Source of the DNA: a virus
IMG/VR virus record: IMGVR_UViG_3300025647_000283
Location: 1 to 23,423 of that record
DNA: 23,423 nucleotides
Strand: one strand, 5' to 3'
In this document: one piece after another, positions 1 through 23,423 of the stretch
Numbering within the stretch: position 1 is the stretch's first letter
Layout: each line of letters opens with the position of its first letter
Translations under genes and position numbers: made by a program
The notes under the pieces: generated by a model
Database searches by the model: none
Told to the model about the DNA's origin: nothing
Seen by the model: the letters and a program-made list of their open reading frames with translations, nothing else

Positions 1-8
1 TGACCGCA

Positions 9-425
9 ATGGTCGAAGACATCAACAGCGAGATCGTCAGCTCCATAAACGAGGAAGGGCTAACCAACATCCTAAGAAACATGGGCAAGGACATCCGCAA
101 GAACAATCGCACCCGATCATGGCCAACAATCTACAACATGGTCAAAGCAGCACAGAAATGCTCAGACGCATACAAGCCACCAATTCTAGGACCGGCAAAG
201 TCAATCGCCTGGGACAGTGACGCCATCGAAGCCAGACGAATGAACCGGGGAGATCCAGTCGCAGAGACATACATCACCGGATCAGGAGCAGACAGACTGC
301 TAGAAAAAAACCTCGTGACGATGAACGTCATTCAAATGTACCGGCAAAGCCTGGAAGAAAACCGCATAGAAGCATATGCCAGAAGAGAGCAGCCAGCCGA
401 CCCAATAGAGGACTATCCATTCTAA
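9..425 (+). CDS. Hypothetical protein with SSB-like acidic C-terminal tip (possibly 5'-truncated)
   Basis: Unrecognised 138-aa protein. It is mostly charged and probably helical, with no signal peptide or membrane segment. Its last residues are DPIEDYPF. Acidic residues followed by a terminal Pro-Phe are the hallmark of the tip by which bacterial SSB recruits replication and repair proteins, so a DNA-metabolism role is possible but inferred. The frame stays open to the left edge (no stop in the eight bases before the ATG) and no ribosome-binding site is visible there, so the real start may lie outside the window. The stop overlaps the next start in a TAATG (423-427), so translation of the winged-helix gene is probably coupled to it. 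Coding-strand composition is C-rich and G-poor, unlike the virion genes downstream. Confidence 0.7.
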   Translation: MVEDINSEIVSSINEEGLTNILRNMGKDIRKNNRTRSWPTIYNMVKAAQKCSDAYKPPILGPAKSIAWDSDAIEARRMNRGDPVAETYITGSGADRLLEKNLVTMNVIQMYRQSLEENRIEAYARREQPADPIEDYPF

Positions 426-1033
426 TGCGCCCCAAACAACTCAGAGCCAAAGATCTAAGAGCCTTTGCAATCGTTCCCATCAGAGCGATCAAAGACCCAC
501 GGATCACGCCCAAAACCCTCCGGGTTCTCATTGCCTTCTGTAGCTACTGCGACAGCATCGGACGCACCTTCGTCAGCAATGAACGCATAGGCCAAGACAT
601 CGGCAGCAAGCGAACAGCAGTAGGATACCATGTCAGGAAGCTTAGAGACTACGGCTACATGGTTTATTGTAGACCATTCTACAAAGGCCAGAGATCCACA
701 AGCAACCGCATCGTCTTCGATCCTCACGTCAAATACGAGGACACACTGCGCTCCAGGCTAACAGCCAAACAGCAAATGGAACTAAGTGAAGCAGAAACAA
801 ACGCACAGCTTCAAGAGCAAATAGATAAATCTGGCACTAACTGCGAGGTTGAACTGGACTTATCTAGGTTAAGGGCTGAATTTCAGTATCTCACGACAGA
901 CTATTTCACGAGGGCAATCGGTGCTGGATGGAGGATCAAGCCGGATGTCGTGCAGTCAGCGGCCATAATGCTGGCCAATCAGGCCGTAGAGCTCCTCACA
1001 GAGCCGCACAGCAACGAAACAGAGGCGGCATAG
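425..1033 (+). CDS. Winged-helix DNA-binding protein, replication-initiator/regulator-like
   Basis: This 202-aa protein has an N-terminal winged-helix region at about residues 25-100. It contains a helix (TPKTLRVLIAFCSYCD), a helix-turn-helix stretch (FVSNERIGQDIG, then a second helix around AVGYHVRKLRDYGYM), and a beta-wing running through YCRPFYKGQRSTSNRIVF. This layout is typical of phage and plasmid replication-initiator or HTH_36-type proteins, in which the second helix reads DNA. The C-terminal half is acidic and helical with no motif I recognise. Its start overlaps the stop of the upstream gene, so the two form a transcription/translation unit. Likely roles are origin recognition or transcription control of the early region; I cannot separate these from sequence alone. 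Composition matches the upstream gene and differs from everything after 1280. Confidence 0.72.
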   Translation: MRPKQLRAKDLRAFAIVPIRAIKDPRITPKTLRVLIAFCSYCDSIGRTFVSNERIGQDIGSKRTAVGYHVRKLRDYGYMVYCRPFYKGQRSTSNRIVFDPHVKYEDTLRSRLTAKQQMELSEAETNAQLQEQIDKSGTNCEVELDLSRLRAEFQYLTTDYFTRAIGAGWRIKPDVVQSAAIMLANQAVELLTEPHSNETEAA

Positions 1034-1279
1034 GTATGGGTAGCCAAACGAGACAACCGGCAATGGTTCGGGCGCACAGCGAGTCAGGCTGTATTAAGAG
1101 TCATAATCCACATTATGTTAAATTGCAGACACAAGATGTTGTGGTTGACGGGCATCGAGGCACAAGAGCGCCACAATCATGCCACATTTGGAACAGCACC
1201 CCTTGCCCCCCGCCCCCTCGCGCCTGTTGTACAGTCCCCCACGAAACTATTTTCCAAAAAACCATGAAAGGCCGTTTCC
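1034..1279. other. Non-coding junction with C-tracts and GC-skew reversal
   Basis: About 246 bases without a convincing gene, separating the two early-type genes from the virion operon. It holds four C-runs (1199-1202, 1206-1211, 1213-1217, 1236-1240), which are G-runs on the minus strand and could form a quadruplex, followed by an A/T-rich stretch (1241-1266). The coding strand is C-rich to the left and G-rich to the right, so composition flips here. I found no good sigma-70 promoter pair, no tRNA and no clear terminator. The frame open across 928-1302 looks spurious. An origin, a phage-specific promoter or a recombination joint are the plausible contents. Confidence 0.5.
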
Positions 1280-1678
1280 ATGCCCGATCTAACTTCTTCT
1301 GAGCGCAATGTTCTTTTATCTTTATCTCGCAATAATCCTCCTGGTTGGTTTTTGAGGGCTGTTGATCCCAGCTCTCCGATTGATCCGAATGAGGGTGCTG
1401 CCCATACTGAGAGCTATGAGCTTGAGGATGGTCGCCAGATTCTTGTTCCCCGTGTTCGTTTGCAAGATGGGAAGCCTGTTGTTTTATCTGGCAAGGGTGA
1501 GGCATTTGATGAGGCTATGAAGCGCGGTGATTTTATTGTTGTCCCTGATGGACAAGACCCTGATGACTATTCTAAGACTTTAAGCAGTCTTATTGGGAAG
1601 ATGCGTTCTTCTGGTGGGAAGGGTAGTATTCGTCCGAAGGCGAGACCTAAGAAGTTACTTAACGTGAAGGGAGGTTGA
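1280..1678 (+). CDS. Hypothetical phage protein, first gene of the virion operon
   Basis: A 132-aa protein I cannot name. The N-terminus is amphipathic (SSERNVLLSLSRNNPPGW). The middle (ELEDGRQILVPRVRLQDGKP, about residues 47-66) followed by a helix (EAFDEAMKRGDFIVVPDG) recalls a short module seen in phage structural and ejection proteins, where a 'dGk...iPtv' strand pair precedes 'eA...a...g'. This resemblance is weak. The C-terminus is basic (about 110-132, rich in K, R, G, S), which would suit nucleic-acid or virion binding. An AAAGG (1266-1270) lies nine bases before the ATG. The stop is followed at once by the start at 1680, so it is probably co-translated with the next two small genes. 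Confidence 0.65.
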   Translation: MPDLTSSERNVLLSLSRNNPPGWFLRAVDPSSPIDPNEGAAHTESYELEDGRQILVPRVRLQDGKPVVLSGKGEAFDEAMKRGDFIVVPDGQDPDDYSKTLSSLIGKMRSSGGKGSIRPKARPKKLLNVKGG

Positions 1679-1679
1679 G

Positions 1680-1844
1680 ATGCCTAACAAGAAACCAGGA
1701 TTATATGCGAACATCCACGCTAAGAAGAAGCGGATTGCTGAGGGCTCTGGCGAGAAGATGCGGAAGCCTGGTAGCAAGGGCGCTCCTAGTGACGCTGCTT
1801 TTCGCAAGGCTGCCAAGACGCGGATGAAGAAGTCTTATGGATGA
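1680..1844 (+). CDS. Small basic conserved phage protein (54 aa)
   Basis: A 54-aa reading frame starting with MPNKKPGLYANIHAKKKRIA and continuing through GSGEKMRKPGSKGAP. This 'YANIHAK(K/R)KRIAxGSGEKMRKPG' pattern recurs in small uncharacterised proteins of many podoviruses, usually close to the terminase genes, which is why I accept such a short gene. About one third of residues are Lys or Arg. GGGAGG (1670-1675) before the ATG is a good ribosome-binding site. The frame overlaps the next gene by eight bases. Function is unknown. The charge suggests nucleic-acid binding, or a role in packaging or head interior, by inference only. Confidence 0.7.
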   Translation: MPNKKPGLYANIHAKKKRIAEGSGEKMRKPGSKGAPSDAAFRKAAKTRMKKSYG

Positions 1845-2026: not shown

Positions 2027-2263
2027 ATGAACAAGCGATTTAGTGTTGTGCAAGCGAAGGAAGTGCCTGGTCGGGATAAGCCTGTTTGGCTGCGTCATGG
2101 CATTGCCTTTCAGAATGACAAGGGGATCAGCATCAAGCTTGAGGGATTGCCTTTACCCAACAAGGAGGGTGAGGTTTGGTTGAAGTTGTTTGAGGATGAT
2201 GGCAATCGTTCTCAGCAAGCGGCTCCTGCTGTTGGCAAGCTGGACGATGAAATTCCGTTCTAA
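2027..2263 (+). CDS. Small protein with SSB-type C-terminal tip (DDEIPF)
   Basis: A 78-aa protein. Residues 1-60 read as a compact all-beta domain (RFSVVQAKEV, PVWLRHGIAFQND, GISIKLEGLPLP, GEVWLKLFED), followed by a short Gln/Ala linker and the end KLDDEIPF. DDEIPF is essentially the acidic tip of bacterial single-stranded-DNA-binding protein (DDDIPF), which docks onto replication and repair proteins. The whole protein is less than half the length of a typical SSB (about 175 aa), so it may be a reduced OB-fold SSB, a decoy, or an unrelated protein that borrowed the tip. Related short proteins occur in phages and mobile elements as hypotheticals. An AGGAG (2016-2020) precedes the ATG. The stop overlaps the terminase small subunit start (TAATG, 2261-2265). 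Confidence 0.72.
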   Translation: MNKRFSVVQAKEVPGRDKPVWLRHGIAFQNDKGISIKLEGLPLPNKEGEVWLKLFEDDGNRSQQAAPAVGKLDDEIPF

Positions 2264-2682
2264 TGGCTAGAAAGAAAGAGGATAAGATAAAACCTATCCC
2301 GCCGGTTGGTCGGTTTGGTGGTGCGCGTGTGTTGCAGCGCCGGATTGGCCGGTCGGAGACTTTGGCTCAGAATAAAGAGGCTGTTGCGACTGAGCTGATT
2401 GCGATGGGTACGGCTCGTATGACTGACATTATTGATCTTCACACTGGTCAGGTTAAGCCGCTAGATGAGATCCCTTCTGAAGCATTGGCTGCGATCAAGA
2501 AGGTGACTGTTGGCCAGTACGGCACAACGATTGAGATGTTTGACAAGGTGAGCGTTCTGCGCATTCTGGCTAAGGCCAGTGGCTTGCTCGATGTAGAGAA
2601 GAACGTGGACAAGCCTTCGATCATTGGGATCAACATGAAGGGTCCAGAGATCACCACAACATATGAGGCTGATGATGACTGA
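2263..2682 (+). CDS. terS: Terminase small subunit
   Basis: A 139-aa protein directly upstream of and overlapping the terminase large subunit. The C-terminal half (KKVTVGQYGTTIEMFDKVSV, then LRILAKASGLLDVEKN, about residues 76-118) is the pattern found in small terminases of podoviruses and related phages, where a 'VGKYG...E..DK..AL..L.k..Gl' segment forms the oligomerisation core. The N-terminus is basic (MARKKEDKIK), fitting recognition of packaging-site DNA. The family assembles into a ring that selects viral DNA and stimulates the large subunit. It is longer than T7 gp18 (89 aa). The start overlaps the preceding stop, so it is probably co-translated with the SSB-tip protein. Confidence 0.85.
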   Translation: MARKKEDKIKPIPPVGRFGGARVLQRRIGRSETLAQNKEAVATELIAMGTARMTDIIDLHTGQVKPLDEIPSEALAAIKKVTVGQYGTTIEMFDKVSVLRILAKASGLLDVEKNVDKPSIIGINMKGPEITTTYEADDD

Positions 2683-4198
2683 TCTCCCCAGCATGAACTT
2701 GGATTTCTCTAAGTCTGCTACGGTCTGGAAGTTTTTACACGATAAGTCTTTTGTTCGCGGCCTGATGGGTCCGGTGGGATCGGGCAAGTCATACGGCTGT
2801 GCTGCTGAGATTATGTTAAAAGCTGTTCAACAAAAGCCTTCTCCGCGTGACGGCATTCGGTATTCCCGGTTTGTAATCGTGCGCAACACCTATCCAGAGC
2901 TTAGGACAACTACAATTAAGACCTGGCAGGAGCTATTCCCGGAAGATGTATGGGGTCAGATGCGCTGGCAACCGCCTATTACCCACCATCTTAAACTCCC
3001 CAGCAGAGATAATGCCCCTGGTATTGACTGTGAGGTTATATTCATGGCCCTTTCTACGCCCCAAGATGTGCGTAAGCTGCTGTCATTGGAGCTAACTGGT
3101 GCGTGGGTGAATGAGGCTAGAGAGCTACCAAAGGCTGTGATCGATGGTTTGACCCACCGCGTTGGCCGTTATCCTACCAAATCCGATGGTGGTGCGTCCT
3201 GGTACGGGATTATCATGGATACTAACCCGCCCGATGCGGATCACTGGTGGCATGAGCTGTCAGAGAAGAATCCTATCGGTGGCCGGTTCCCGTGGAAGTT
3301 CTTTCGTCAGCCAGGTGGTGTCTTGGAGGTGTCTGCCAAGGATCTACCAGAGAACCCGGAAGCAAATGGTTTTGTATTTTCCGGTGGCAAGTGGTGGATG
3401 GTTAATCCTTCTGCGGAGAATAAGGTGCATTTGCCTGATGGTTACTATGAGCAACTTCTCGGCGGAAAGAATGCTGACTGGATCAGGTGCTATGCAGAGG
3501 GCAAGTTTACCTTCGTGCAGGAAGGCAGGCCGGTTTGGCCGGAGTATGACGATGAAATGATGTCTGCGGATGTGCAGTATGATCCGCAATACCCGCTACA
3601 GATCGGCGTTGACTTTGGTTTAACACCGGCGGCTATCTTTGGGCAGCGAACATCTGGCGGCGCGTGGAAGATCCTCGATGAGCTTGTGACGTTTGACATG
3701 GGGCTTGAACGCTTTGGGCAGGAGTTGATAGGCAAGATCGCTGCAAGCTTCAACAAAGCAGAGGTGCAGATCTGGGGAGACCCTGCTGGGAACAAGCGTG
3801 ACGAGATCTATGAGGTTACAGCCTTCGATCACTTGCAGTCTATTGGGTTTCGCGCGCAGCCGACAGATAGCAATGCTTTCAATGTAAGGCGTGAGGCTGC
3901 TGCGGCTCCTATGAACCGGCTGGTTGGTGGCAAACCTGGTCTTCTCGTTAGCAAAAAGTGCTTGAGGCTGCGGAAATCTCTGAGTGGCGGCTATTTCTTT
4001 AAGCGTGTTTCTATGGGCGCTGGGCAGGATCGGTTTAAAGATGCGCCGGTGAAGAATGAACACTCTCACTGCGGGGATGCGTTTGGATATCTTATGCTCG
4101 GTGGCGGTGAGCAGCGCAGATTGCGGCGCGGAACCTATGGCGGAAGCTTTGCGGGTGGGCAAACATTCAGCGCAAGCACAGATTTCGAGATCTTCTAA
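2675..4198 (+). CDS. terL: Terminase large subunit (packaging ATPase and nuclease)
   Basis: About 507 aa; the motor that pumps DNA into the prohead and cuts it. Counting from the ATG at 2675: Walker A GPVGSGKS at 32-39; Walker B-like strand GAWVNEAR with the catalytic Glu at 147 (an Asn sits where Asp is usual); RVGRYP and MDTNPPDADHWW are motifs of this podovirus TerL subfamily; RNase H-like nuclease Asp residues lie in GVDFG (313), WGDPAG (369) and HCGDAF (468). An in-frame ATG at 2663 would give 511 aa, but a GAGG at 2665-2668 is well placed for 2675. The start overlaps terS by eight bases. T7 gp19, 586 aa, is the functional counterpart. The stop overlaps the next start (TAATG). Confidence 0.95.
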   Translation: MTDLPSMNLDFSKSATVWKFLHDKSFVRGLMGPVGSGKSYGCAAEIMLKAVQQKPSPRDGIRYSRFVIVRNTYPELRTTTIKTWQELFPEDVWGQMRWQPPITHHLKLPSRDNAPGIDCEVIFMALSTPQDVRKLLSLELTGAWVNEARELPKAVIDGLTHRVGRYPTKSDGGASWYGIIMDTNPPDADHWWHELSEKNPIGGRFPWKFFRQPGGVLEVSAKDLPENPEANGFVFSGGKWWMVNPSAENKVHLPDGYYEQLLGGKNADWIRCYAEGKFTFVQEGRPVWPEYDDEMMSADVQYDPQYPLQIGVDFGLTPAAIFGQRTSGGAWKILDELVTFDMGLERFGQELIGKIAASFNKAEVQIWGDPAGNKRDEIYEVTAFDHLQSIGFRAQPTDSNAFNVRREAAAAPMNRLVGGKPGLLVSKKCLRLRKSLSGGYFFKRVSMGAGQDRFKDAPVKNEHSHCGDAFGYLMLGGGEQRRLRRGTYGGSFAGGQTFSASTDFEIF

Positions 4199-8458: not shown

Positions 8459-9292
8459 ATGGCGATTAACGTCTCAACCGCGTTTGTTGATCTTTTCGAT
8501 TCTGAGGTCAAACAAGCGTATCAAGCCGAATCTGTGCTTCGTGGCACAATGAGGACCCGCACCGGCGTTGCCGGTAATACTGTTAAGTTCCCAACAATCG
8601 GTAAAGGTGTAGCTACGCTCCGCGTACCACAAACCGATGTTACTCCACTTAACGTCACATACGGCCAAGTAACTGCGACAATGGAAGACTACATTGCAGC
8701 AGAATACTCAGACATCTTCCAACAGTCCCACATCAACTTTGATGAGCGTTCTGAATTGGTACAGGTTGTATCTAAGTCTATTGCTCGTCGCATGGACCAG
8801 ATCATGATCGATGCTCTGAACGCGGCCACTGGCACATCTACTGTTGCAACAACAATCGGTGGTGCTGGCACAAACATGAACATCGAAAAGCTCCGCGCTA
8901 CTGCGAAAGCTATGAATGAGAAGAACGTACCTTCTGAAGGCCGTAACTTGCTCATGCACGCTTCTCAGCTAGATGCTTTGCTCGGTGAAACTGAAATCAC
9001 AAGCCAAGACTTTGCTTCTGTCAAAGCTCTTGTCCAAGGTGAGATCAACACATTCATGGGCTTCAACATCTTGACAATGGGCGACCGTGACGAAGGCGGT
9101 ATTCCTAAGCCTTCTACTCGTACCTGCTTTGCCTGGCACAAAGATTCGATGGGCTATGCTGAGTCGATGGCTCAGAAAACCGAAGTCAACTATGTCCCAG
9201 AAAAGACATCGTTCTTGGTTAGCTCCATGTTCTCTGCTGGTTCCGTCGCAATCGACGGCGAAGGCATTGTCAAAATTTCTTGCACTGAATAA
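8459..9292 (+). CDS. Major capsid protein
   Basis: A 278-aa protein following the scaffold gene. It begins MAINVSTAFVDLFDSEVKQ and has the HK97-fold order of podovirus capsids: an N-terminal arm, VRLE-like beta strands (NTVKFPTIGKGVATLRVPQ), a long spine-like helix (ERSELVQVVSKSIARRMDQI, about 97-116, just before DALNAATG), and a C-terminal domain (GRNLLMHASQLDALLG through GINTFMGFNI-type strands and a final SVAIDGEG). It is shorter than T7 gp10A (345 aa), as in many marine podoviruses. A TTG at 8432 is in frame but would add a basic stretch and place the strong ribosome-binding site inside the gene, so the ATG at 8459 is chosen. Codon use favours C-ending codons, consistent with high expression. 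Confidence 0.93.
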   Translation: MAINVSTAFVDLFDSEVKQAYQAESVLRGTMRTRTGVAGNTVKFPTIGKGVATLRVPQTDVTPLNVTYGQVTATMEDYIAAEYSDIFQQSHINFDERSELVQVVSKSIARRMDQIMIDALNAATGTSTVATTIGGAGTNMNIEKLRATAKAMNEKNVPSEGRNLLMHASQLDALLGETEITSQDFASVKALVQGEINTFMGFNILTMGDRDEGGIPKPSTRTCFAWHKDSMGYAESMAQKTEVNYVPEKTSFLVSSMFSAGSVAIDGEGIVKISCTE

Positions 9293-9304: not shown

Positions 9305-9544
9305 ATGGCATTCGCAACAGCAAATTGGGCAACAGTTGGCGCTTCTAAAAGCGGCAATGCTCCAGCTATCTACAGCTATAAGTCTGCTACAGACAACAAA
9401 GCTGCTATCGCTGGCTCTGGCTATTTCAACACAGTTGAAGCTCTTATCACTACTGGTGATTGGATCTACACATACGGCAGCGATGGCGGTCAAACGCTTG
9501 TCGCTACCAACACAGCAGGCGTCATTACAACGGCTGTAATCTAA
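9305..9544 (+). CDS. Small capsid-accessory (decoration/head-fibre-like) protein
   Basis: A 79-aa protein directly after the capsid gene with a clear AAGGAG before its ATG. It is predicted all-beta, with the pattern 'iysYkSaTDnkaaIagsGYF...ealittGDwIytygSDGgqtl...' that recurs in small proteins placed beside capsid genes of many phages. Small size, soluble beta character, shared transcription with the capsid gene and the terminator right behind it suggest a protein made in high copy and bound to the shell. That assignment is by context; no experiment-backed homologue is known to me. Confidence 0.65.
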   Translation: MAFATANWATVGASKSGNAPAIYSYKSATDNKAAIAGSGYFNTVEALITTGDWIYTYGSDGGQTLVATNTAGVITTAVI

Positions 9545-9550
9545 AGAAAG

Positions 9551-9575
9551 AAGGGGCTGGATACTCTGGCCCCTT
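9551..9575 (+). terminator. Hairpin terminator or attenuator after the capsid genes
   Basis: AAGGGGC (9551-9557) pairs perfectly with GCCCCTT (9569-9575) around an 11-base loop, preceded by an A-rich run and followed by CCACCCTTT rather than a clean U-tract. It lies ten bases after the end of the accessory capsid gene, the position of the T7 terminator behind gene 10, and probably lowers read-through into the tail genes. The poor U-tract suggests partial termination, or an RNA-processing or stability hairpin. Confidence 0.5.
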
Positions 9576-9596
9576 CCACCCTTTACGGAGAACGAT

Positions 9597-10214
9597 ATGG
9601 CTGCTGGTGATACCTCACTCTCGATCTGCTCGGATGCTCTGATATTGTTGGGCGCTTCGCCCATTTCTTCTTTTACAGAAGGATCTGACTCAGCCCAGGC
9701 TTGTGATCGACTTTATCCAGATCTCCGTGACTCGCTGCTTTCAAACTATCAATGGAGTTGGAGCGTTAAAAAGGTGCAGCTAAATCGGCTGTCTACTGCT
9801 CCTATCGATGAGTGGAAGTATGCCTATCAAATGCCAGGAGATATGCTCTCCGGCGTCTTAGCCTTATTTACAAGCGCTGGTATTGGCGAGAACCCTGTCC
9901 GGTACGGGTGGGAAGTTTACGGCGATCAGCTATACACAAATTTCGAGAAGGTTTTCATCGACTACCAAGGTACAATCGATGAAAGCAAAATGCCAAATTA
10001 CTTTGTGCGCCTTCTCCGCACCTCACTGGCTGCTGAGTTAGCCTTTACAATTACCGATCAGATTAGCAAGTCAGACTATTTTCGGGCCTTGGCATATGGC
10101 TCACCCGGTGAGTCAAACCGTGGTGGCTTGATGCGTGAGGCAATGAACATAGATAGTCGCGGTAAGCCGCCGCAGATCATTGAGGATTATTCTCTTATTG
10201 ATGTGAGATACTAA
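9597..10214 (+). CDS. Tail tubular protein A (T7 gp11-like)
   Basis: A 205-aa protein, against 196 aa for T7 gp11. The N-terminus (SLSICSDALILLGASPI, then ACDRLYPDLRDSLLSNYQW, about residues 7-54) is the family signature, followed by the YAYQMPGDML strand and a C-terminal helical region (LRTSLAAELAFTITDQ). The family forms the dodecameric adaptor between portal and nozzle. A GGAG lies in the right place before the ATG, and the gene follows the capsid terminator hairpin. The next gene starts two bases after its stop. Confidence 0.92.
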   Translation: MAAGDTSLSICSDALILLGASPISSFTEGSDSAQACDRLYPDLRDSLLSNYQWSWSVKKVQLNRLSTAPIDEWKYAYQMPGDMLSGVLALFTSAGIGENPVRYGWEVYGDQLYTNFEKVFIDYQGTIDESKMPNYFVRLLRTSLAAELAFTITDQISKSDYFRALAYGSPGESNRGGLMREAMNIDSRGKPPQIIEDYSLIDVRY

Positions 10215-21221: not shown

Positions 21222-23423
21222 ATGAGTGATATCGCAATTAATCCAGTAACCCGCCGGGTTCAGTTCACAGGCAATACCGGAACCGGTCCATATGCCTTTA
21301 CCTTCAACATCTTGGTCGATGGTGATATCGCAGTCTTCAAGGGGACTACGGAGCTAACGCTTACCACTGATTACACGGTCAGTATTAACGCAAATGGAAC
21401 GGGGTCTATCACTCTAACTGCTGCCCTCATAGCATCTGACGTTCTTACAATCATTGGTGGTCGTGAGCTTTCTCGGACCACAGACTTTGTTACAGCCGGG
21501 GATCTTCTGGCTTCTAGCTTGAACGAACAGCTAGACAGTAACGTGATTATGACCCAACAGCTTGATGAAAAGCTTGGGCGTGGTTTGTTTGTAAACCCTG
21601 GTGATGTGTTTACTGACCTAGAGCTTCCTCTGAAGGATGATCGCAAAGGTACAGTTCTTGGGTTCAATGCTACTACGGGTGATCCAGAGCCAGGTCCAGA
21701 GATTGCTGATGTCGATTCACTAGCAAATGTCTCTGCTGATATTAAAACCCTTGCTGAGATCCAAGATGGCACGGTTGCCACTGGTGCCATTACAAACGTA
21801 AATACGATCCGTACAGATGTAACCACAGTTTCCGGCATATCTTCCAATGTGACAACCGTTGCCGGCAATACATCAAACATTAATACGGTTGCAGGAAACA
21901 ATGCTAACATTACAACTGTTGCTGGCATAAATAGCGATGTAACTACTGTCTCAGGTATATCATCTGATGTAACTACTGTTGCCGCTGACGGTGCAGATAT
22001 TGGTGTTGTTGCTGGTTTATCATCTGACATAATTACTGTTTCCGGTGTATCGACGGAGATCGGTCGTTTGGGTACAGCAGATGCCGTATCTGATATGAAC
22101 GCACTAAGTCCTGCGGCAGTTATTGCTGACATGGATTCTCTTGCTGACAATGTTAGTGCGATTTCTATTGTATCAGATGATATTGGCAATGTTATTGCTG
22201 TTGCTATAAACGCAGCCAACATCAATACGGTTGCCGCTGATGGCGCCGACATTGGCACGGTGGCTGGTGATATATCTAACGTCAATACGGTTGCGACTAA
22301 TATTACGTCAGTAAACACAAACGCCACAAACATTACTGATATCCAGAATGCTTCTGCAAATGCTGCTACTGCAACAACACAGGCCGGAATTGCTACAACA
22401 CAGGCTGGCATAGCAACGACTAAAGCTAGTGAGGCTGCAACCAGCGAAGCCAACGCTGCTACAAGCGAAACAAACGCTGCCACCAGTGAAACCAATGCTT
22501 CCACAAGTGAAACAAATGCTGCTACTAGCGCGACTGACGCTGCATCAAGCGCAACAAGTGCTGCTGGTTCTGCTAGTGCTGCCCTTAATTTTCAAACTCA
22601 AGCAGGGATTTATTCTAGTAACGCTGCTTCTAGCGCATCTTCTGCATTGTCTTCTAAAAACTCCGCCAGTTCGTTTGCAACAAATTCGGCAAACTCTGCT
22701 ACTAGCGCCTCTAATAGCGCTAGTACCGCTACAACAAAAGCAAGTGAGGCGGCTGCTTCCGAAACTGCGGCTGAAGCTGCTAAGGTTGCGGCTGAGGCTG
22801 CGCTTGATGAGTTTACAGACATCTATCTCGGGGCTAAGGCTTCAGACCCCACAACAGATAATGATGGGAATGCCCTGACTGCTGGGGACCAGTATTTTAA
22901 TACAACCATTAATGTGCTGAAGATCTACAACGGCTCTGCTTGGCAGTCTGCTGCTATTGATAGCTCCGGTTTTGTCGAGACTACTGGTGATACCATGACT
23001 GGCCCTCTGGATGTGCAATCGACTATCACCAGCGATGGGCTGACTGTGGATAAAAACGGCATTGGCGGCGTAACAATTCAATCTGGCGGAACATCCGGCA
23101 CGGCAGGAATACGACTAAACGCTACAGACTCTGCTGGAAACTCAGGCGGCATTGTTGATCTTGACGTAACTTCTTCCGCAAATTCTTTTGGCGCTTTAAC
23201 CATTTCTACTAGGGCAGGCGCAGCGGTTACAAAACGTGCCTTGTTTGACTCCAACGGCGACATCAGCTTTTACGATTCGGCGGGGTCGAGCCAATCGTTC
23301 TTCTGGGATGCGAGTGCTGAGTCGTTGGGCATTGGGACGAGTTCGCCTAGTGGCATACTCCAACTGCGAGCCACCAATCCTGATATGTATATTACCTCTG
23401 ACGATACAGGACAGTCTGACATC
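21222..23423 (+). CDS. Tail fibre protein, T7 gp17-type N-terminus (3'-truncated by the window)
   Basis: At least 734 aa, open to the right edge. Residues 1-130 match the T7 fibre anchor domain that binds the nozzle: PYAFTFNILVDGDIAVFKG, LTTDYTVSINANGTGSITL, GRELSRTTDF. Residues 190-374 are irregular repeats of about 9-11 residues with a T/N-V core (NVTTVAGN, DVTTVSGI). Residues 376-528 are an Ala/Ser/Thr-rich region with AATSETNAATSETN-type units, as in side tail fibres such as lambda Stf. Then come YFNTTINVLKIYNGSAWQ, the fibre motif GDTMTGPL (589-596) and a LGIGTSSPSG-type strand (about 700). This last pattern often precedes a receptor-binding end and a self-cleaving chaperone, which would lie outside the window. 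T7 gp17 is 553 aa, so this fibre is considerably longer. Confidence 0.92.
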   Translation, partial: MSDIAINPVTRRVQFTGNTGTGPYAFTFNILVDGDIAVFKGTTELTLTTDYTVSINANGTGSITLTAALIASDVLTIIGGRELSRTTDFVTAGDLLASSLNEQLDSNVIMTQQLDEKLGRGLFVNPGDVFTDLELPLKDDRKGTVLGFNATTGDPEPGPEIADVDSLANVSADIKTLAEIQDGTVATGAITNVNTIRTDVTTVSGISSNVTTVAGNTSNINTVAGNNANITTVAGINSDVTTVSGISSDVTTVAADGADIGVVAGLSSDIITVSGVSTEIGRLGTADAVSDMNALSPAAVIADMDSLADNVSAISIVSDDIGNVIAVAINAANINTVAADGADIGTVAGDISNVNTVATNITSVNTNATNITDIQNASANAATATTQAGIATTQAGIATTKASEAATSEANAATSETNAATSETNASTSETNAATSATDAASSATSAAGSASAALNFQTQAGIYSSNAASSASSALSSKNSASSFATNSANSATSASNSASTATTKASEAAASETAAEAAKVAAEAALDEFTDIYLGAKASDPTTDNDGNALTAGDQYFNTTINVLKIYNGSAWQSAAIDSSGFVETTGDTMTGPLDVQSTITSDGLTVDKNGIGGVTIQSGGTSGTAGIRLNATDSAGNSGGIVDLDVTSSANSFGALTISTRAGAAVTKRALFDSNGDISFYDSAGSSQSFFWDASAESLGIGTSSPSGILQLRATNPDMYITSDDTGQSDI
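21792..22343 (+). repeat. In-gene tandem repeats coding TTVxG-type fibre shaft
   Basis: Degenerate repeat of about 9-11 codons around ACT-GTT-GCT/TCC-GGC, giving DVTTVSG, NINTVAG and similar units at fibre residues about 190-374. Copies differ at synonymous positions. They probably fold as trimeric shaft or coiled-coil steps. Because of the repetition an opposite-strand frame stays open (21371-22504). Confidence 0.65.
22347..22805 (+). repeat. Ala/Ser/Thr-rich repeat region in the fibre gene (Stf-like)
   Basis: Codes residues about 376-528 with seven-residue-type units (TSETNAA, ATTQAGI, repeated KASEAA). Best matched by the AATSETNA repeats of side tail fibres of lambda-like phages; likely trimeric coiled coil. 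Length variation is common in such tracts. Confidence 0.65.

Follow-up and report, generated by a model that had tools for sequence, protein, structure and literature searches.

A family-wide reversal of silent-site strand bias at a conserved non-coding junction in uncultured phages

Introduction

Silent sites of bacterial chromosomes carry a leading/lagging-strand skew, G+T versus A+C, which takes opposite signs on either side of a point, and symmetric bacterial promoters give rise to divergent transcription. Both phenomena bear on the phage locus described here, for which the closest described systems are phage lambda and the Methylophilales phage MEP301. The available part of PMC5043065 maps the lambda replication origin within the O gene and describes it as activated by transcription. 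For phages of the MEP301 type, the accessible text of PMC8024684 sets the group criterion at a share of at least 40% of genes in common with MEP301.

The DNA that we analysed, called the window below, is the virus record IMGVR_UViG_3300025647_000283 (G000 in our set) over its positions 1-23,423, a stretch of 23,423 nucleotides. Its terminase large subunit (TerL) is 67.5% identical to that of MEP301. A first-pass annotation had described an abrupt reversal of strand composition at the non-coding junction between early and virion genes, and had proposed that such a flip marks either a replication origin or terminus, or the joining of modules with different histories.

Results

Silent-site composition reverses at the junction

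Throughout, K denotes the G+T share and M the A+C share, counted at four-fold degenerate sites unless otherwise stated. The features of the window concerned are as follows.

3..425, plus strand: 3' part of the 176-aa gene, in the position of lambda P; strongest A/C bias (four-fold sites A30 C19 G8 T0)
425..1033, plus strand: gene of the 202-aa protein with a winged-helix-type domain (HTH_36), A/C-biased, in the position of lambda Q
1034..1279, no strand: non-coding junction, site of the K-M reversal
1102..1117, no strand: inverted repeat CATAATCCACATTATG, present in one of two intergenic alleles
1199..1217, plus strand: C-tract CCCCTTGCCCCCCGCCCCC, the most C-rich 20-mer of the window
1228..1271, plus strand: TGTACA palindrome, CCCCCACGAAACTATTTTCC stretch and Shine-Dalgarno-like TGAAAGG before the first late gene; putative late leader/promoter
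1280..1678, plus strand: 132-aa ORF, first late gene in the window phage, G/T-biased (four-fold K 0.79)
1680..1844, plus strand: 54-aa ORF, G/T-biased (z +1.8 only)
2027..2263, plus strand: 78-aa ORF, G/T-biased
2263..2682, plus strand: terminase small subunit (TerS), Terminase_2 match, G/T-biased
2663..4198, plus strand: TerL, bias already weaker

The five C and G counts of 60-base lines given in the first-pass annotation were all exact, and the reversal that it described in spite of co-directional genes is borne out, with K going from 0.25 to 0.83 across the window junction (z 9.6). The reversal is, however, a switch from A+C to G+T at silent sites and not one of C and G alone. None of 20,000 permutations of the 60-base lines reached the observed K-M step. 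Scanning of co-directional coding sequence put the largest step at 1250, and the cumulative K-M (G+T minus A+C) and cumulative G-C curves have their window minima at 1293 and 1341, respectively. When synonymous codons were shuffled within the window and the G+T share at third positions was scored, the 176-aa and 202-aa genes departed by z values of -8.3 and -6.8, and the 132-aa ORF and TerS by +4.9 and +4.0; the largest departure among the other 20 window genes was -3.4, in the capsid gene. GC skew goes from -0.07 and -0.06 in the left genes to between +0.19 and +0.26 in the 132-, 54- and 78-aa ORFs and TerS, and AT skew is +0.46 and +0.26 in the two left genes, -0.20 in the 132-aa ORF and +0.22 in the 54-aa ORF. 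In minus-strand reading the base frequencies of the left genes are A.143, C.162, G.248 and T.447; those of the right genes in plus-strand reading are A.129, C.152, G.219 and T.500. The two sides of the junction are near mirror images in silent-site composition, a pattern that looks as if the same damage had hit opposite strands to the left and to the right.

At the far end of the window, a 377-aa open frame on the minus strand (21371-22504) lies antisense to the gene in the tail-fibre position and is probably a by-product of the repetitive coding sequence of that gene.

The reversal is shared by the relatives of the window phage

Relatives were collected by scans of viral contigs, which gave 43 loci for the 202-aa gene, the best 80 of 240 for TerL and, out of 98 stretches with the 176-aa gene of which the best 80 were used, 79 loci. 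A search of bacterial genomes for a host or relative yielded nine stretches that matched a pattern, none of which was confirmed. Four relatives (G001-G004) have overlapping contig ends and behave as circles of 31.6-33.7 kb, the joins being approximate as the end overlaps are 88-99% identical. Scored directly on plus-strand genes, the junction step gave z values of 7.9, 8.8, 6.7 and 5.1 in G001-G004; the best steps of G001 and G004 in an open scan lay elsewhere (-3.8 and -5.6, at rotated positions 2000 and 2150). The reversal is real and family-wide, and the bias persists in members whose 202-aa and 176-aa proteins are as little as 53% and 39% identical, respectively.

Mean K per gene was calculated on the plus strand at four-fold sites from sequences thinned to distant relatives. 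Three minus-strand early genes, in plus-strand reading, have K of 0.60-0.61, and the plus-strand early genes encoding a ribbon-helix-helix (RHH) protein and RusA have 0.60 and 0.54. K then falls to 0.35 in the replication initiator gene O, 0.27 in the 176-aa gene and 0.32 in the 202-aa gene, and stands at 0.74, 0.67, 0.71 and 0.74 in the 132-, 54- and 78-aa ORFs and TerS. TerL has 0.65, the GNAT, portal, scaffold, capsid and tail-tube genes have 0.49-0.60, and four genes further right, each represented by one thinned sequence, have 0.45-0.53. Minus-strand genes of the four circles have K 0.59 when far from the divergence and 0.50 in the two nearest it. Gene orientation as the cause was rejected, as the genes across the junction are co-directional and the minus-strand genes share the plus-strand K. 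Around most of the circle G+T is in excess on the plus strand irrespective of gene direction, and the sign is reversed only from the O region to the junction.

At finer scale, the four circles have K of 0.54-0.60 between -3.0 and -2.0 kb and of 0.40 between -2.0 and -1.8 kb; K reaches 0.10 at -1.2 to -1.0 kb, and then climbs through 0.25-0.27 (-1.0 to -0.6 kb) and 0.39 (-0.6 to -0.4 kb) to 0.45 (-0.4 to -0.2 kb). To the right it is 0.71 at +0.2 to +0.4 kb (41 sites), 0.77 up to +0.7 kb, 0.79 up to +1.0 kb, 0.63-0.64 up to +2.5 kb and 0.50-0.63 thereafter. Close to the first late ATG, at distances of up to 0.2 kb, the bins were affected by doubtful reading frames, the removal of which left no sites at -0.2 to 0 kb and a K of 0.44 at 0 to +0.2 kb (18 sites from one genome). 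Hence the claim of abruptness holds for the step at the junction but not for the left side, which is a ramp in the four relatives, so that only part of the change is abrupt.

The bias follows position more than gene

The interval between the junction and TerS behaves as a hotspot for accessory genes (L082, L088, L098 and others). It held 16 ORF families in 45 distinct regions, and mean K exceeded 0.5 in 15 of the 16 and 0.6 in 14 of the 16. The single family below 0.5 (K 0.44) may not be a gene, and a family that we take to be methyltransferase-like has K 0.52. Silent-site bias is set by position more than by gene. The 202-aa region is a mosaic in which alleles of this gene have been exchanged relative to their neighbours.

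In 36 loci outside the family, O homologues have K of 0.37-0.55 (35 loci) and P homologues 0.32-0.68, neither set being thinned; these genes are mostly near K 0.5 and without bias, and L191, L180 and L193 lean towards A/C. The largest step was 3.1-4.1 in MEP301, lambda, VA-RY-3, BcepC6B, Hodr and Ss1, and at most 3.4 in the 36 loci of other families. Titles and abstract openings of the literature searched, which comprised open-licence PMC papers only, held no phage report of such a step.

The ratio of observed to expected identity at silent sites was 1.55 for the 176-aa gene and 1.56 for the 202-aa gene, with 1.47-1.87 elsewhere; O had the highest silent-site conservation of 16 genes (1.87). 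As silent bases turn over in the 176-aa and 202-aa genes, it is composition and not a fixed sequence that is kept there, and a fixed cis-element within the 176-aa gene was rejected given the lack of excess silent-site conservation. Rare variants numbered 18 M-to-K and 11 K-to-M in the left block, none and 9 in the right block, and 23 and 64 in the late genes. Purifying selection or a bias in polarity fits these counts better than new mutation in the direction of the bias, the singleton directions being few and biased by majority polarity and the RHH, O and GNAT sets too small.

The junction contains a conserved element

Many relatives have the right part of the junction in common, that is, the C-tract, a TGTACA- or TATAGCTA-like core, the CCCCCACGAAACTATTTTCC stretch and TGAAAGG. 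The left part (window 1034-1190) occurs in close relatives as two unrelated alleles, one of which carries the inverted repeat, and these left-half alleles are exchanged independently of the 202-aa allele. The exact pattern of the element was found once each in 73 of 203 loci, some of which share contigs and many of which do not cover the place; a laxer pattern gave 43 distinct versions, and the core is palindromic in many of them. In the window, the four circles and MEP301 alike, the C-tract is the most C-rich 20-mer and lies at the same place. The right part is probably the late leader and promoter region. Sigma-70 hexamers were not found at the junction, and the sole site in 700-2300 lies at 1675-1704, against a mean of 2.0 sites in shuffles. 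On the minus strand of the junction a G-quadruplex pattern was present in 14 of 38 distinct elements in its strict form and in 36 of 38 when one long loop was allowed.

Several observations concern contig structure around the element. The distance from TerL to the element varies from 1023 to 3123 bp (33 contigs). Of the 74 contigs that have an upstream end, seven break off 0-29 bp short of the element (window 1199-1250; L049, L057, L063, L064 and others). A defined packaging end at the C-tract was rejected, as these contigs end at different bases; an assembly break or an imprecise packaging cut fits as well. Distant TerL relatives carry a G5AG5-type tract just upstream of TerS (L223 1248-1267 in Ss1; L220 5685-5704 in VA-RY-3), on the strand opposite to the C-tract of the window family.

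An iteron-bearing O gene lies left of the switch in most relatives

The window begins inside the 176-aa gene, and its own O region lies outside the record. The gene order to the left can be read from L005, on contig G002, where a leftward operon diverges from a rightward one. The leftward operon encodes a Gp157/Gam-like protein, a 257-aa protein of an unnamed family, which we take to be a recombinase, and small proteins. The rightward operon encodes a weakly matching ribbon-helix-helix protein, RusA, a 234-aa O-like initiator, the 176-aa protein (full length at 9474-10004) and the 202-aa protein, followed by the junction and the late genes. The 234-aa protein matched replication initiation family phrog_270 (3.3e-44), O-like phrog_391 (1.4e-20) and HTH_36 (4.2e-14). 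The 176-aa protein matched no family in profile searches; its gene sits beside O, in the place where a helicase-loader gene would be expected.

The O gene of L005 contains three copies of GATRTGWAAAATTTACA, 22 and 23 bp apart (9058-9128), and that of L010 contains three copies of another motif at the same spacing. Of 41 thinned O genes from the window's and other families, 36 beat the best of 10 codon shuffles, and the spacing is exactly 22 and 23 in 28 of the 41, two of which are not above their shuffles. The motif differs between O alleles, and of the 21 O genes at least 45% identical to that of L005, 20 have iteron scores of 30-39. Repeats placed within O in this way match the build of the lambda origin. 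By eye, and in L005 only, an A+T-rich stretch adjoins the iterons on the right. Other phage families also have the pair of O-like and 176-aa-like genes (L173 4165-5360, L191 4234-5408 and others in L168-L203), mostly with iteron-like repeats at similar spacing and mostly beside a Gp157-like leftward gene.

Measured on L005, the distance from the iterons rightward to the first late gene is about 1.7 kb, and that to the first base of the window about 0.45-0.5 kb. Binned at 75 bp in 13 O alleles, K declines through 0.50, 0.44, 0.36 and 0.23 on the way to the middle iteron and stays at 0.28-0.39 in the five bins past it, the left edge of the A/C block being within about 300 bp of the iterons. In members with an identified iteron origin, the A/C block extends from near that origin to the junction element, and the G/T peak lies just to the right of the element and fades. 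Judged by these repeats, the replication origin likely lies about 1.7 kb left of the switch in most relatives, not at the switch.

G004 departs from this arrangement. At the same operon position (L030 8740-9495) it encodes a DUF1376/primosomal protein unrelated to O (DUF1376, 2.1e-14; primosomal phrog_3992, 1.6e-27), and iterons were not found near this position. The bias is nonetheless present (K 0.32 to 0.64); hence the A/C block needs no iteron origin at its left end. In L031, L032 and L033, too, no iterons were found over 1.1 kb on the left side of the 176-aa match. The initiator gene is replaceable and the bias stays.

What remains of an origin at the junction

The proposal of an origin at the junction survived in part. 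A+C on the left and G+T on the right is the polarity of a bidirectional origin, but iterons were found in O and not at the junction; no repeat family occurs inside 1034-1279 beyond one 10-nt pair. With the circles linearised 3 kb to the left of the 202-aa gene, three of the four have their K-M minimum at the junction (rotated positions 3884, 3886 and 3905) and the fourth has it at 3596. The GC-skew minimum falls there in one of the four only, those of the others being at 757-905, near the divergent early operons. In MEP301 neither the K-M nor the G-C minimum lies at the junction. The junction as sole origin is made less credible by the O iterons, although none were found in G004 and L031-L033.

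The 202-aa protein, besides its HTH_36 match, weakly matches phage replication initiation profiles. Its structural model has a mean pLDDT of 71.6, and Foldseek returned generic winged helices (best E 9e-3); a PDB sequence search gave a best E of only 0.08. In 5 of 27 genes of this protein the iteron score exceeds that of the gene's own shuffles, by 1-3 points and up to 28 at best (26 in the window's gene, against 23 in shuffles), with no shared place or spacing.

Discussion

Possible causes of the reversal

The leading explanation, which we hold tentatively and which may well be wrong, is replication-linked strand exposure that changes polarity at the junction. The bias would be mutational and stem from replication. 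Rightward forks would dominate, so that around most of the circle it is the plus strand that, as lagging-strand template, is exposed and grows rich in G+T; from the origin to the junction the minus strand would be single-stranded for longer, and the same damage on it would leave the plus strand A+C-rich. A possible cause is that helicase unwinds the DNA rightward from its loading site at the origin and continuous synthesis starts only near the junction element. The junction would then be a change in polarity of strand exposure and not an initiator binding site, with the 202-aa protein as a candidate late regulator or accessory replication factor. In favour of a replication cause are the independence of plus-strand K from gene orientation in the early genes, the mirror composition, inserts that follow their position, O and P of other families near 0.5, silent turnover, the iterons in O and the lambda-like layout. 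Against it stand the bias of G004 without iterons, MEP301 with a 202-aa homologue and C-tract and no flip, lambda with the same origin type and no step, the rare variants, the highest silent-site conservation being that of O, and a K of 0.45 at -0.3 kb, which makes the left bias weakest and not strongest beside the junction. We lowered our confidence in this cause because G004 is biased without O iterons.

A more specific version, which we think improbable, is that over the stretch of about 1.7 kb from origin to C-tract the minus strand would be single-stranded for long in every infection cycle, leading-strand or R-loop-primed synthesis would start at the C-tract, the loading and start sites would be separate, and the mirror bias would survive a swap of initiator.

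Divergent transcription from the junction could give the same composition and is a possible, if doubtful, cause. A strong late promoter would fire rightward and an antisense one leftward over the 202-aa, 176-aa and O-position genes, and the displaced non-template strands would become G+T-rich; a transcript running leftward through the C-tract would be rich in G and might be held in a stable R-loop. Such a cause fits the sign change at a conserved leader element with a palindromic core in many versions, the peak of K in the first 1-1.5 kb of the late operon with its fading downstream, and the independence of the bias from the initiator gene present. The available part of PMC3985674 describes a leftward antisense promoter near the lambda origin. 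The minus-strand early genes nevertheless break the rule, being A/C-rich on their coding strand (K 0.39-0.40); moreover, a sigma-70 promoter was not found at the junction and the left bias does not peak beside it.

Selection on codons or mRNA structure that differs between early and late genes, without strand-specific damage, appears unlikely. It would account for the left-operon, O, 176-aa and 202-aa genes all being A/C-rich on the coding strand, for the excess of rare K-to-M over M-to-K variants in late genes and for synonymous departures elsewhere (capsid, z -3.4). It does not predict the near mirror of base frequencies, however, and the early RHH and RusA genes are not A/C-rich, the presumably highly expressed capsid gene has a lower K (0.54) than TerS (0.74), and inserts follow position, though all are late genes too.

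It is likewise improbable that a second origin, served by the 202-aa HTH_36 protein, would operate at the junction besides that of the O region, its leftward forks stopping near the O region. The absence of iterons at the junction, the scores of the 202-aa genes (at most 28, against 30-39 in O), the generic winged helices from the fold search (best E 9e-3 with a pLDDT 72 model) and the missing flip in MEP301 all weigh against it. For it speak the origin-type polarity with a K-M minimum at the junction in three of the four relatives, the bias of G004 without O iterons, the weak match of the 202-aa protein to replication initiation profiles, and the retention of the 202-aa gene with the C-tract in G004 and in MEP301, in the latter of which no O-like gene appears at the cut-off used.

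Mosaic joining of modules with different histories, as the first-pass annotation had also offered, or a recent insertion is very improbable and was set aside: 202-aa alleles are exchanged and members differ in having unrelated proteins at the O position, but the exchanged alleles and 15 of 16 insert families carry the bias of their place, the profile is graded, the bias is kept in divergent homologues and unrelated inserts, and O and P of other families are mostly without it.

Meaning and comparison with known systems

If the bias is mutational, silent sites alone would reveal the exposed strand and the place of exposure during the life cycle of uncultured phages. Among the six other phages and 36 other loci compared, none showed a local step of such strength next to its own mirror image. 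The right end at a conserved non-coding element and, in most members, the left end near an iteron origin point to a possible gap between helicase loading and the start of continuous synthesis. Furthermore, the skew minimum of a phage can lie 1.7 kb from its likely origin.

Bacterial chromosome skew differs from the present case in scale: of a circle of 32-34 kb, the arm with the opposite sign here takes up only about 2 kb, and the bias is strongest locally and then fades. By analogy with symmetric bacterial promoters, the palindromic promoter-like core of the junction could fire both ways. MEP301, a cultured phage (L116), resembles the window phage in TerL (67% identity), in portal and capsid (about 63%), in having TerL, portal, capsid and tail-tube B in the same order, and in a 202-aa homologue (32% over half its length) followed by the C-tract; it differs in lacking an O-like gene at the cut-off used, in having SSB and RusA right of the junction and in showing no flip. 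The likeness to lambda is one of layout: most members have an O-like initiator with iterons in its own gene, a gene in the P position, one in the regulator position and the late operon, with a Gam/Gp157-type leftward operon on the other side. Lambda Q and the 202-aa protein are alike in position only, and lambda has four iterons (starts 39034, 39054, 39078 and 39101) whereas the window family has three, mostly 22 and 23 bp apart. In G004 O is replaced by the DUF1376 protein, and lambda, unlike the window family, has no strand-bias step.
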